The position numbers and the translations under genes were made by a program. The notes beneath the pieces were generated by a model, which made no database searches, was not told the DNA's origin, and saw nothing but the letters and a program-made list of their open reading frames with translations. This document shows, one piece after another, positions 751-46,622 of a stretch of DNA of 64,000 nt. This DNA comes from an uncultured Bacteroidales bacterium. Lineage in GTDB: Bacteria > Bacteroidota > Bacteroidia > Bacteroidales > UBA932. The stretch spans positions 62,001 through 126,000 of the forward strand of contig CAJONC010000006.1 of assembly GCA_905235675.1 (NCBI GenBank), given 5' to 3'. Positions within the stretch are counted from its first letter, which is position 1. Each line of letters begins with the position of its first letter.

Positions 751-3700
751 TTATCCCAACTTATTCAATAATGAATATGCCGACTGTAACGAATCCACTC
801 CGTGGGCGACTATTTTCAGCTTGGGACCTGTCTGTTTGAGTACGAAAGGAAGGTTTCCGGACGACACCGAGGACAGTATCTTTTCGAAAGTTTTCGATTC
901 GTAGTATCTGGAATGTTCTTCGCCCGTGAAGAAAGCTATACACATCCCGTTCTTTACTATTATCTTCTCAAAACCGAGCTGCATTCCAAGATTGCGCATC
1001 CTGACTACGTCGAAGAGATTCAGCACCTCCTGCGGCAGGCGGCCGAAACGGTCGGTCAGCTGCGAGGAAAGGATTTCGAGTTCCTTCTCGGAACCGAGGG
1101 AATCAAGCTGTTTGTAAATTCTTATCTTTTCGGCGGTTATATCTATGTAAGTATCGGGAATAAGAGCCTCCTGGTCGGTTTCTATAGTGCAGTCCGTAAG
1201 GAAGCGTTCCTTTCCGGCACGGGTTTTCACCCCAGTACCGATTTCTATTCCGAGTTCCTCCATGGCTTCCTCTATCACCTTCTGGTATGTCTCGAATCCC
1301 ATGTCCATTATGAAGCCGCTCTGTTCCGCACCGAGGAGATTTCCCGCGCCGCGTATGTCGAGGTCCTGCATTGCTATATTGAAGCCGCTGCCAAGGTCGG
1401 AGAATTCCTCTATCGCGTGGAGCCTGCGGCGGGCGTCTTCCGTTATCGAGGCGAAAGGAGGCACCACCAGATAACAGAAAGCCTTCCTGTTAGACCTGCC
1501 CACCCTTCCGCGGAGCTGATGCAGGTCGCTGAGGCCTATATTCTGCGCCTGGTTGATTATTATGGTGTTGGCGTTCGGGATGTCGAGGCCGTTTTCTATA
1601 ATGGTGGTACACAGCAGGATATCGTAGTCGCCACGGATAAAACCGAGCATCTTGTCTTCCAGTGTACGGGCGTCCATCTGTCCGTGGGCCAGGCATATTT
1701 TCGCATCCGGAACTATTCTCCGGAGTATGTTTTCTATATGCGGAAGTTCCTCGACCTTGTTATGCAGGAAGAAAACCTGTCCGCCCCTGTTGAGTTCGTA
1801 ATTTATTATGCCCTTAATTTCCGTCTCGTCGAAGAGCATTATCTCCGTATGCACGGGAATGCGGTTAGGCGGAGGAGTGTTAATTATGCTCATGTCCCTC
1901 GCTCCGAGAAGGGAGAACTGGAGGGTACGGGGGATGGGAGTTGCGGTAAGTGTCAGGGTGTCGATATTGGCCTTCATCTGCCGGAGTTTTTCCTTGGCTG
2001 AGACTCCGAACTTCTGTTCTTCATCTATTATCAGCAGTCCGATATCCCTGAATTTGAATCCTTCCCCGAGAATTTTGTGGGTTCCTATAAGTATATCTAT
2101 TTTCCCTTCCTCCAATTCCTTTTTTATCTGGCTTATCTGCTTGGCAGTACGCAGACGACTCACATATTCCACTTTGCACGGGAAGTTTTCAAGTCGGGAG
2201 GAAAAAGTATTATAATGTTGTAAAGCCAATATTGTAGTAGGGACAAGAACCGCAACTTGCTTTCCGTCGGCCACCGCCTTGAAAGCTGCCCTTATCGCTA
2301 TTTCCGTCTTGCCGAATCCTACATCCCCGCAGATAAGCCTGTCCATAGGGCAGTCATCTTCCATATCCCTTTTTACCGATGCTGTGGCAAGTTCCTGGTC
2401 GGGGGTATCCTCGAACATGAAGGAGGATTCAAGTTCATCCTGAAGATAACTGTCCGCGGAGAATGCAAAACCCTTAGTGGCCCTTCTCTTGGCATATAAC
2501 TGAATCAGATCCTTGGCAATATCCTTTACCTTGCTTTTGGCGTTCAGTTTCATGGTCGCCCATGTCTTCGTGCCAAGTTTGTTTATACGGGGCTGTTCAC
2601 CTTCGGAGGAACGGAACAGGGAGAGTTTGTTCAGGGCATGTACGGACACGAACACCACATCCCCGTCGCGGTAGGTAATCTTCACAACCTCCTTTACCCT
2701 TCCTTTATCGTCGTACATTCTCACCAGACCGCCGAAAATCCCGACTCCGTAATCGATATGCACCACATAATCCCCGACATTGAAGGAGTTGAGGTCGTTT
2801 ATTGTCAGCTGTTCGGATTTTTCTACGCTGCGGCGCATCCTGACACGGTGGAAACGGTCGAAAATCTCATGGTCGGAATAGCAGCATATTTTCTCGTCCT
2901 CGTCTGTGAAACCCTTGTGTATACCTGCTCCCTCCACAAAATCTGGCAGTACGCATCCCTCGCTCGTTATTATGGATTTTATCCTGTTCAACTGGGAACT
3001 TTTCTCCCCTATGATATACACTTTGTATCCTGCGTCCGTTTTCCTTCTGATATCTTCCTCCAGGAGATCGAAATTCTTGTTGAATACCGGCTGGGGAGAG
3101 ATATGGAACTTCAGGGCGTTTTCGCCATCGATTCCGAGAGGAATATCGAGGTAAACCTTCCTGAATCTTTCGGTCTTCGAAATGAAATCTTCCTTTTTAT
3201 AAAGGTCGTACGAGTCCATCCACACCACTGAATTGTCCGGAAGCAGGCTGAATACATAATCTCCAGTCTCGTCTTCTTCGCTCAGGCTGCCGCCGGTAAT
3301 GTCGACGGATTCACAGGCCTCCCTCGATATCTGGGTATTGGAGTCGAAAGAATTTATACTCTCCACTTCATCTCCCCAGAAAGATATGCGGTAAGGCTCG
3401 TTGTTGGAATAGGAAAATACGTCCAGCAGGGAACCCCTCACCGCAAATTGGCCTGGTGCGGACACAAAATCCACCCTCTCAAAACCTTTGGTCCCAAGTT
3501 TTTGGATCAGGTCCTCGAAATGAATCTCCATCCCTTTACGGACACTTATTATGGAATTCTCACTTATTCCGCCAGGGGAAATCTTTTCATTTATGGCTTC
3601 AGGATAACTTACTATGAAAACCTGCCCTGCCCTGAATTTTATTATTTCACTCAGGGCGGCCGTCCTCTGGACACTGATTGTAGATTTGTAATTGGATTTT

Positions 3701-3969
3701 TCTATTCCTTTTCCCGACTGGGGAAGGATGAATACCCTGTCGCCGCTTACCAGACTATAAAGGTCGGCCGCACAATATTCTGCAGATTCCCTGTCCGGAA
3801 GTATTATGAAATTTATGGTATCGGGGGCTGCATCGCTGAGTACGAACCACCTGGCGGACAAAAAAAGCCCGCCGCAGAATATTTCTTTTTCTGAAGATGC
3901 TATCCTGCCGCCGAGTTCCGATATCTTTTGCTTACAAATCTGTATAGGCTCTTTTTGAGTTTTCAACAT
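751..3969 (-). CDS. mfd: Transcription-repair coupling factor Mfd
   Basis: 1072 aa; CarD-like RNAP interaction region (GDYVVHIDYGVGIFGGL), helicase motifs GDVGFGKTEIAIRAAF, DEEQKFGV, QLRGRVGRS. Confidence 0.97.
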   Translation of the reverse strand: MLKTQKEPIQICKQKISELGGRIASSEKEIFCGGLFLSARWFVLSDAAPDTINFIILPDRESAEYCAADLYSLVSGDRVFILPQSGKGIEKSNYKSTISVQRTAALSEIIKFRAGQVFIVSYPEAINEKISPGGISENSIISVRKGMEIHFEDLIQKLGTKGFERVDFVSAPGQFAVRGSLLDVFSYSNNEPYRISFWGDEVESINSFDSNTQISREACESVDITGGSLSEEDETGDYVFSLLPDNSVVWMDSYDLYKKEDFISKTERFRKVYLDIPLGIDGENALKFHISPQPVFNKNFDLLEEDIRRKTDAGYKVYIIGEKSSQLNRIKSIITSEGCVLPDFVEGAGIHKGFTDEDEKICCYSDHEIFDRFHRVRMRRSVEKSEQLTINDLNSFNVGDYVVHIDYGVGIFGGLVRMYDDKGRVKEVVKITYRDGDVVFVSVHALNKLSLFRSSEGEQPRINKLGTKTWATMKLNAKSKVKDIAKDLIQLYAKRRATKGFAFSADSYLQDELESSFMFEDTPDQELATASVKRDMEDDCPMDRLICGDVGFGKTEIAIRAAFKAVADGKQVAVLVPTTILALQHYNTFSSRLENFPCKVEYVSRLRTAKQISQIKKELEEGKIDILIGTHKILGEGFKFRDIGLLIIDEEQKFGVSAKEKLRQMKANIDTLTLTATPIPRTLQFSLLGARDMSIINTPPPNRIPVHTEIMLFDETEIKGIINYELNRGGQVFFLHNKVEELPHIENILRRIVPDAKICLAHGQMDARTLEDKMLGFIRGDYDILLCTTIIENGLDIPNANTIIINQAQNIGLSDLHQLRGRVGRSNRKAFCYLVVPPFASITEDARRRLHAIEEFSDLGSGFNIAMQDLDIRGAGNLLGAEQSGFIMDMGFETYQKVIEEAMEELGIEIGTGVKTRAGKERFLTDCTIETDQEALIPDTYIDITAEKIRIYKQLDSLGSEKELEILSSQLTDRFGRLPQEVLNLFDVVRMRNLGMQLGFEKIIVKNGMCIAFFTGEEHSRYYESKTFEKILSSVSSGNLPFVLKQTGPKLKIVAHGVDSLQSAYSLLNKLG

Positions 3970-44529: not shown

Positions 44530-45447
44530 ATGGAAAAAGAAGACCCTTTGATGAGACTTGAACGCGAAGAGCGCGAACGCAAGGAACGCGGCGGCAGCCT
44601 GAAGGCCGTAATGTGGGTGCTGGCGGCTGTTGCGCTGGCCCTTGTAGCCGCCCTGGCGTATGTTTGGTCAAGCAAGACGAGCCTGGTTAAAGACCTCGAA
44701 ATCGACAAGCAGCAGCTCACGGAGCAGATTGTGAGCCTGCAGGGAGACTATGAGGCCCTCTCCAGCGACTATGATTCCGTCAACTCCCAGCTCGACTCTT
44801 CCCGCGAGGAGGTCGCCCAGCTGGTGGAGCGCATCAAGAATACCGAGGCCACCAACCGTGCCAAGATGCGCCAGTACGAAAAGGAACTGGGTACGCTCCG
44901 CAGCATCATGCGCGGATATGTCAAGCAGATAGATTCCCTCAACACCCTCAACAAGCAGCTTACCGTGCAGGCGGCCAATGCCCGCCGAGAGGCTGCCGAG
45001 GCGGGACGCAAGAACGCCGAACTTGCGGAGCAGGTCAGCGCCCTTACCGACAAGGTGGCGGTGGGTTCGGTGCTCAAGGCCCGCAATCTTTCGCTCGTGG
45101 CCTATGCCTCGAACGGCAAGGTTACCGACCGCAGCAGCCGTACCGCCCAGATGGTGATGAATCTCACGCTTTCCGAGAACGAACTGGCTCCCACGGGCCC
45201 CGTGCGCATCTTCCTGCGCGTGAAGGATCCGGACGGAAATCTGCTTCTCGACGGCACCGGTGCCACTTTCACCCTTGGTTCCGACATGGTCCCCGCGACA
45301 GCTTCGCGTGAAATAGACTTCAACGGCAAGGATGTCGAGGTGAGCATCTACATCAACGATACCGGAGCTTTCGTGAAGGGAATCTACACCGCCGAAGCCT
45401 ATACCGTACAGGGCAGGCTCGGTCAGGCCGAGGCCCTGCTGAGGTAA
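44530..45447 (+). CDS. Hypothetical membrane-anchored coiled-coil protein
   Basis: single TM then long coiled coil and C-terminal beta domain; no family recognised. Confidence 0.6.
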   Translation: MEKEDPLMRLEREERERKERGGSLKAVMWVLAAVALALVAALAYVWSSKTSLVKDLEIDKQQLTEQIVSLQGDYEALSSDYDSVNSQLDSSREEVAQLVERIKNTEATNRAKMRQYEKELGTLRSIMRGYVKQIDSLNTLNKQLTVQAANARREAAEAGRKNAELAEQVSALTDKVAVGSVLKARNLSLVAYASNGKVTDRSSRTAQMVMNLTLSENELAPTGPVRIFLRVKDPDGNLLLDGTGATFTLGSDMVPATASREIDFNGKDVEVSIYINDTGAFVKGIYTAEAYTVQGRLGQAEALLR

Positions 45448-46622
45448 TGGTATACCTGCACGTCCCTTTCTGCAGGAGTTTCTGCACCTACTGCGATTTC
45501 TATTCGGAGATTGCCTGCAAGGGGAGGGATGCCGCCGCGATTGACCGCTGGACGGAAGAAGTCTGTACGGAGGCGCTGTCCCGCAGGAAGGAGATAGGGC
45601 AGACGCTCGACCTCAATACGCTTTACATAGGAGGAGGTACGCCCAGCGTGCTTCCTCTTTCCGTTTTGCGTAGGGTGGTGGAGTGCCTGGAGGAGATTAC
45701 GGGCGCGGGGCCGCGTTCGGGGAGGAGATATGAGGAGTTTACGATGGAGGTGAATCCGGAGGATATAGTGGAGAAGGGAGATGAGTATGTGCGGGGTCTT
45801 CTGGATTTGGGGGTGACGCGGTTCAGTATGGGGGTGCAGTCGCTCGACGATGGCATTCTCCGCTGGATGAACCGCCGCCACGATGCCGCCGATGCCCGCA
45901 AGGCTTTTGATATTCTGCGTAGTGCGCGGCGGAGCAATCCCTCGCCGACCGCTTCGCTTCGCTCCGCCCCTCCCAGCAAAGCTGGGTCCCTCCCTCTAAG
46001 CCGAGGGTGGCGTAGGTCTTGCGAGGGATTCTCCGCCGGCGCTATAAGTGTAGATATAATAACCGGCGTTCCGGGGATGACGGAAAGGATTTTGGCGGAG
46101 ACTGTCGATGAGATTATTTCATGGCATCCTGAACACATATCTTCATATCAGTTGAGTGTCGAGGAGGGCAGCGCCCTCGCGAAAATGATAGACGGGGGCA
46201 TCGCCGCCGAACTCGACGAAGAACAGTGCCGCGCGCAATACGAACTTGTCTGTACCAGGCTCGCCGCCGCAGGATACCATCATTACGAGATATCCAACTG
46301 GGCCCTGCCGGGTCACGAAGCAGTTCACAACTCCGCCTACTGGACCCGCCATCCTTACGTCGGTCTCGGCCCCGGAGCCCATTCGCTGATATTCCGGAAG
46401 CCTGACGGTACCCCCGCAAAAGACGGGGAAATACAGTGCCGCAGCTGGAACGCCGAAGCCCTTGAAAACTGGAGAAATGACGAGGATGGCTCAGGAAGCG
46501 AAATCCTCACCCCCGAGCAGATTCGCGAGGAAGAAATAATGCTTCTCGCCCGCACCGCCGCCGGCCCCATCCCCGAAAAAGACTGGTTCGTCGCCGACGA
46601 TATAATAGCTTCGATGATTTAA
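45447..46622 (+). CDS. hemW: HemW-type radical SAM protein carrying an internal ~40 aa insertion
   Basis: VPFCRSFCTYCDFYS (CxxxCxxC); YIGGGTPSVLP; FSMGVQSLDD; VDIITGVPGMTERI. Confidence 0.9.
   Translation: MVYLHVPFCRSFCTYCDFYSEIACKGRDAAAIDRWTEEVCTEALSRRKEIGQTLDLNTLYIGGGTPSVLPLSVLRRVVECLEEITGAGPRSGRRYEEFTMEVNPEDIVEKGDEYVRGLLDLGVTRFSMGVQSLDDGILRWMNRRHDAADARKAFDILRSARRSNPSPTASLRSAPPSKAGSLPLSRGWRRSCEGFSAGAISVDIITGVPGMTERILAETVDEIISWHPEHISSYQLSVEEGSALAKMIDGGIAAELDEEQCRAQYELVCTRLAAAGYHHYEISNWALPGHEAVHNSAYWTRHPYVGLGPGAHSLIFRKPDGTPAKDGEIQCRSWNAEALENWRNDEDGSGSEILTPEQIREEEIMLLARTAAGPIPEKDWFVADDIIASMI
45928..46037. repeat. Palindromic insertion element inside hemW
   Basis: outer arms GGCGGAG-c-AATCCCTCGC / GCGAGGGATT-CTCCGCC; inner hairpins CCCAGC-AAA-GCTGGG and CCCTC-taagcc-GAGGG. 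Confidence 0.75.

Follow-up and report, generated by a model that had tools for sequence, protein, structure and literature searches.

A palindromic segment in hemW of a Bacteroidales bacterium is very probably a copy of a non-autonomous mobile element with a copy-specific stem

Protein-coding palindromes are known mainly from Rickettsia and Wolbachia, and their mode of movement is unsettled. Within the 64,000-nucleotide window (the whole stretch of DNA that was analysed), hemW contains a palindromic segment that an earlier note had read as an in-frame protein-coding palindrome, resembling the RPEs of Rickettsia and not expected in Bacteroidota. We asked what this segment is and how it came to lie within a conserved gene. 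The features of the locus are the following.

45447 to 46622, plus strand: hemW, radical SAM heme chaperone, the host gene (TIGR00539 hemN_rel, PF04055; 391 aa)
45920 to 45945, plus strand: left arm of the palindrome, TAGTGCGCGGCGGAGCAATCCCTCGC (inverted repeats, fold-back alignment)
45921 to 46034, plus strand: codons of the ~38 inserted residues, SARRSNPSPTASLRSAPPSKAGSLPLSRGWRRSCEGFS (protein alignment with HemW of relatives; AlphaFold2)
45946 to 46020, plus strand: conserved family core, variant with CTCTAAGCCGAGGGTGGCGTAGGTCTT (~15 core copies in the source genome; variant also in hemW of G123, L098)
45972 to 45986, plus strand: inner hairpin CCCAGC-AAA-GCTGGG (fold predictions, inverted-repeat search)
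45992 to 45996 and 46003 to 46007, plus strand: second inner stem, CCCTC / GAGGG (centroid structures)
46021 to 46044, plus strand: right arm, GCGAGGGATTCTCCGCCGGCGCTA, complementary to the left arm (inverted repeats, fold-back alignment)

The exact inverted sub-arms at hemW are AATCCCTCGC, which pairs with GCGAGGGATT, and CGGCGGAG, which pairs with CTCCGCCG. With one-base gaps allowed, TAGTGCGCGGCGGAGCAATCCCTCGC pairs with GCGAGGGATTCTCCGCCGGCGCTA. The inverted repeat said to bound the segment is present, but the 17 bp given for it is too short, the arms at 45920-45945 and 46021-46044 being slightly longer. Both of the inner hairpins described (CCCAGC-aaa-GCTGGG and CCCTC / GAGGG) were found. 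Folded as RNA, the hemW palindrome reached -75.2 kcal/mol, compared with -52.1 +/- 3.8 for shuffled sequences (z = -6.0); folded as DNA, it gave z = -5.8. Because none of 200 shuffled sequences folded as well, we conclude that the palindrome is not due to chance.

The hemW frame passes through the palindrome without a stop. Its product matches PF04055 and the TIGR00539 hemN_rel profile (9e-53), the latter match being broken into two stretches at residue 158. Alignment with HemW from ~28 relatives agreed with the description of the insert as about 40 residues rich in Arg, Ser and Pro (we count ~38), at a place where homologues are normally contiguous: most pass directly from helix to strand, the helix end ...FRILR being followed almost at once by (x)SVDLI, and the four exceptions (L098, L101, L106, and L121) carry inserts in the same loop. 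NocN, the closest homologue found in the PDB, has ~9 residues at this loop, compared with ~44 in HemW. An AlphaFold2 model of HemW built with 27 aligned HemW sequences (pTM, 0.83) placed insert residues 169-192, with pLDDT < 50, between a helix at 147-163 and a strand at 199-206. The insert peptide is predicted to be a disordered loop between these two elements. At the orthologous site in hemW of G123 (L098) lies the same rare core variant as in the source hemW copy. HemW of G145 (L101) and of G195 (L121) have different in-frame inserts at the same loop, GGGGGTTC... and STPYEPPRPDCLSDFSPEKSRPGRRSEERMN, respectively, which suggests that a second family of protein-coding repeats may exist and that this loop may be a hotspot for insertion. 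A second HemW insertion hotspot, near the C-terminus between the RSWN and LSxEE motifs, has inserts in L118/L261, L103, and L126.

The core at hemW is one of ~15 copies in the source genome (G000), with a shared sequence of ~75 bp, ~ACCGTCTCGCTTCGCTCGACCCCTCCCAGCGGAGCTGGGCCCCTCCCTCTTAACGTGCCGAGGGTGGCAGTGGTTTC. A search of relatives found the core in 21 of 36 other genomes sampled from the same genus (up to 31 candidate copies per genome) but in none of the 24 genomes of other families that this sample included. Across a wider sample of Bacteroidales (~290 genomes), it occurred in three genomes outside the genus, one from the same family and two from other families; two of the three had long, well-paired, copy-specific arms, and the third had weakly paired arms. 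Among the loci listed for named genomes, those matching the exact core pattern were all from Bacteroidales/Bacteroidia MAGs, mostly from ruminant guts, and this one pattern had no match in viral contigs. A literature search limited to papers outside subscription found no Bacteroidales counterpart of the element. We conclude that the family is common throughout the genus and rare in the remaining Bacteroidales. To judge from its size and habitat, the genus is probably Candidatus Cryptobacteroides. One copy (L430) has a further palindromic segment of ~53 bp nested within its core.

The arms were compared within and between copies. In all 75 copies sampled, the left and right arms were complementary (mean local score, 47; sd, 8), whereas arms from different copies had a mean score of 14 (sd, 3; maximum, 40). 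The within-copy score exceeded the 95th percentile of between-copy scores in 75 of 75 cases. At 24 stem positions in 41 equal-arm copies, 93% of pairs were Watson-Crick, compared with 43% when right arms were shuffled between copies (maximum of 51% in 500 shuffles), and most stem positions showed all four pair types across copies. We conclude that a 20- to 30-bp stem, private to each copy, around a common ~75-bp core is a new and unusual trait of this family. Arm sequence is not entirely random: at different loci in G121/G174, sister copies that belong to one subfamily share a CAAGGCAGAACTGCCCCCTGCAAAC-like inner arm sequence.

Empty sites were sought by a concatenated flank search in 400 genomes of the genus. 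At the occupied locus L323, ...GGAAAGTAGGTT is followed by CTGGGAGG...core...CCTCCCAG and then by AACCTACCAGCC; its relative L386 is empty and reads GGAAAGTAGGTTTACCAGCC, so that the insertion junction is GGAAAGTAGGTT^TACCAGCC. Other occupied loci with empty counterparts include L312, L340, L336, L334, L290, and L337. At ~10 loci, with some twenty empty sites, the core and both inner (20-nt) arms were absent. Since the empty sites of relatives have neither the core nor either arm, we conclude that complete hairpins insert. No fixed target motif was established from these comparisons. For RluD, the loop was readable in 26 of 30 genus members and has 15-19 native residues (about 17), typically HLGISQGPDAEDERMGV; RluD of G000, G398, G353, and G123 has 55-68 residues there, with native-like residues on both flanks. 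G174 and G121, which are 94% identical, were tried as an empty-site pair and dropped, the sites being too rearranged for a clean reading. The L340 locus of a relative also contains a match to the SAM-II riboswitch at positions 3755-3814 (RF01726, 59 bits).

Thirteen of the 15 copies in the source genome lie inside long host frames, and every one of these frames is open. Family searches identified the hosts as hemW, fmt, rluD, uvrA, polA, and the genes for RNase R, a PDH-type E2, DsbD, a RecB-like helicase, a NapH-like ferredoxin protein, and a RhaD-like aldolase/dehydrogenase; two further hosts, a glycoside hydrolase and a helix-hairpin-helix-like protein, were assigned by visual inspection alone. 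Every in-gene copy seen keeps the frame and encodes a peptide rich in Pro, Ser, Arg and Gly within a loop or linker. Among copies with a tabulated frame, those with a consensus core use one reading frame per orientation: plus-oriented copies read ...TPPSGAGPLPLxVPRVA..., and minus-oriented copies read ...ATLGTLRGRGPAPLGG... or near variants. The hemW copy, which has the variant core, is in another frame. The inserts of UvrA and PolA are unaligned to PDB homologues, that of PolA lying between the 5'-3' exonuclease domain and the remainder of the protein. Genus-wide, 39 of 74 copies fell within ORFs of 150 aa or longer, compared with 85% of random positions of equal size, indicating that the element is tolerated by genes yet depleted within them. 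In the RecB-like helicase of the source genome (L050, ~3008-3148), the core is split by an extra segment, TCGAAAGGTTGGAATTACGGGGCCCCCGAAAATTGC..., with the frame kept. In rluD of G353 (L188), the insert is unlike that of the sister species G398 and contains an in-frame tandem duplication of part of its own sequence.

The multicopy core, the 13 of 15 copies in open frames and the insertion of whole palindromes at empty sites support the reading of the hemW segment as an in-frame, RPE-like protein-coding palindrome. It is very probably one member of a non-autonomous, REP/RPE-like family of mobile palindromes in a Bacteroidales gut genus. RPEs are multicopy palindromes of 100-150 bp, inserted into housekeeping genes without breaking the frame (described by Ogata et al. 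2000, according to PMC3767692 and PMC10969869); the same papers place RPE-encoded residues at solvent-exposed sites. RPE orthologues share sites, and whether this reflects hotspots or common origin is debated, according to passages of PMC3767692 that also cite the protein-coding palindromes of Wolbachia (WPE). The element likewise is a multicopy 100- to 150-bp palindrome in frame in conserved genes, and its peptide is predicted to lie at disordered or interdomain sites (HemW model loop 169-192; PolA interdomain stretch); the likeness to RPEs was drawn from function and description. The element differs in belonging to another phylum, in having a copy-specific outer stem with the inner core alone conserved, and in the varying orientation of the core at orthologous sites. 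WPEs, compared by description, are also protein-coding palindromes but of another phylum.

A palindrome of this kind in Bacteroidota is not wholly unexpected, since REPs occur in Bacteroidetes and REPs inside genes occur in several phyla (PMC3733652). Among the GTAG- and CGTC-tagged REPs, the CGTC group has members in Bacteroidetes, some REPs are intragenic, and CGTC REPs occur without an adjacent transposase (PMC3733652). Reported REP hosts are uvrA and genes for DNA polymerase I, UvrD/Rep helicase, recBCD, and tRNA pseudouridine synthase (PMC3733652), a list that the hosts here (uvrA, polA, RecB-like helicase, rluD) resemble. This overlap with unrelated REPs raises the question of why enzymes acting on nucleic acids are favoured as hosts or tolerate insertion. 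The element here is palindromic and intragenic, as REPs are, but is 110-150 bp long with a 20- to 30-bp copy-specific stem. The CGTC REP unit (20-40 bp, with a CGTC tag, an 8- to 9-bp stem starting with A/T pairs, and a CCA tail [PMC3733652]) was not seen in the element by inspection.

The element might be moved, as some REPs are, by a RAYT (tyrosine transposase). A search for PF01797 in 61 genomes found RAYT-like ORFs, mostly of ~290-370 aa, in G000 and most of the sampled genomes of the genus, as this explanation would have it. However, none of the 19 PF01797-like loci read, which are not an exhaustive survey, contained a core-like motif; several of these genes directly precede their own, different palindromes; core-free genomes also carry Y1 transposase-like genes; and G014, which has 11 core copies, had no match, the genome being 70% complete. 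We consider mobilisation by a RAYT unlikely. The tyrosine transposase-like genes at L446, L450, L453, and L445, each with its own short repeated palindromes directly after it, apparently represent a separate RAYT/REP system in the genus.

MITEs have terminal repeats that are conserved within a family and usually target duplications. On this reading, the element would be a DNA transposon that has lost internal sequence but has conserved terminal inverted repeats and target duplications. Its small size, non-autonomous nature and inverted repeats would fit, as would the absence of any gene within it. We find this rather improbable, however, given that the terminal arms are not conserved among copies (score of 14 between copies versus 47 within) and that no target-site duplication was evident in the empty-site comparisons, made with relatives that are only ~70-85% identical.

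The arms might instead be host sequence, had insertion of the core produced an inverted duplication of the target flank by snap-back copying. Such an origin would agree with their copy-specific nature, with an outer arm GC content equal to that of the flank (0.56 for both; core, 0.68) and correlated with it (rho, 0.41; p, 0.0002), and with the outermost ~4-7 bp of the arms at rluD, L340, and L323, which match the native flank in inverted orientation. Neither 20-nt inner arm, however, is in the empty sites of ~10 loci, and the G121/G174 sister copies have inner arm sequence in common at different loci. We rejected a target origin for the inner ~20 bp on the basis of the empty sites; a flank copy could account for no more than the outermost 4-7 bp. 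As an account of the arms, target duplication is very unlikely.

We also considered that the element might be removed rather than translated, as an intron-like sequence or a hairpin bypassed by ribosomes. A very stable hairpin is indeed predicted in the mRNA. However, all 13 in-gene copies of the source genome have no stop, and consensus-core copies use a single frame per orientation; open frames would be needless if the element were removed. The Rfam covariance models also gave no match to the element. Removal is highly improbable. Misassembly, or a variable native loop whose palindrome is accidental, has next to no likelihood even in a draft genome of 71 contigs, given the fold z of -6 and the same core in many independent MAGs, also at orthologous positions; a chimera at hemW is excluded by the orthologous copy in another MAG (L098) and by the repeated orthologous copies in other genes.

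Orthologous copies of the mobile palindrome were compared for changes in arms and core. L323 and its orthologue L430 have identical arms, though their flanks differ by several per cent, and L284 orthologues have uncompensated changes in a single arm. On a short timescale, arms are inherited, with no homogenisation seen at L284. The folP copies of G398, G402, and G353 have arms that differ at several positions, each still self-paired, and the hemW copies of G000 and G123, with their rare core variant in common, have outer arms that are different yet self-complementary. Over longer times, both arms of a copy change together. The core has opposite orientations between orthologous sites in rluD, PDH E2, RNase R, rhaD-like, fmt, and folP. 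In folP and rluD, the opposite cores lie between homologous arms (scores up to 37, higher than almost any non-orthologous pair), whereas at the other such sites the arms are not homologous; in-place inversion and re-insertion at hotspots may thus both occur. Many copies are inherited vertically.

We tentatively propose, as something short of an even chance, that each round of propagation resynthesises one arm on the other, giving each new insertion an altered but perfectly symmetrical 20- to 30-bp stem. In the main reading itself, an enzyme acting in trans would recognise the core and the hairpin, not the stem sequence, and propagation would pass through a single-stranded DNA or RNA hairpin intermediate. 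The stem would drift freely among copies, its symmetry being kept by copying of one arm from the other, that is, by template switching in the hairpin, during propagation or replication; recombination or switching between arms would flip the core. The copy in hemW is probably a tolerated passenger sequence, translated as a harmless Pro/Ser/Arg/Gly-rich loop. The alternative to arm renewal is ordinary drift together with template-switch correction or selection on the stem. If the stem does rewrite itself, its sequence would be free to vary without loss of transposition, and the arms would permit the core to flip in place. With many copies across a genus that has hundreds of sequenced species, the family offers empty and orthologous sites, sister subfamilies and cores of flipped orientation. 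Comparing these could dissect how the hairpin inserts, how its stem may be renewed, and how core enzymes (PolA, UvrA, RNase R, and HemW) tolerate it.

Among relatives, L226, compared with L184, has an apparent partly deleted copy, and dsbD of G195 (L230) contains a short palindrome with no core that is perhaps a remnant.
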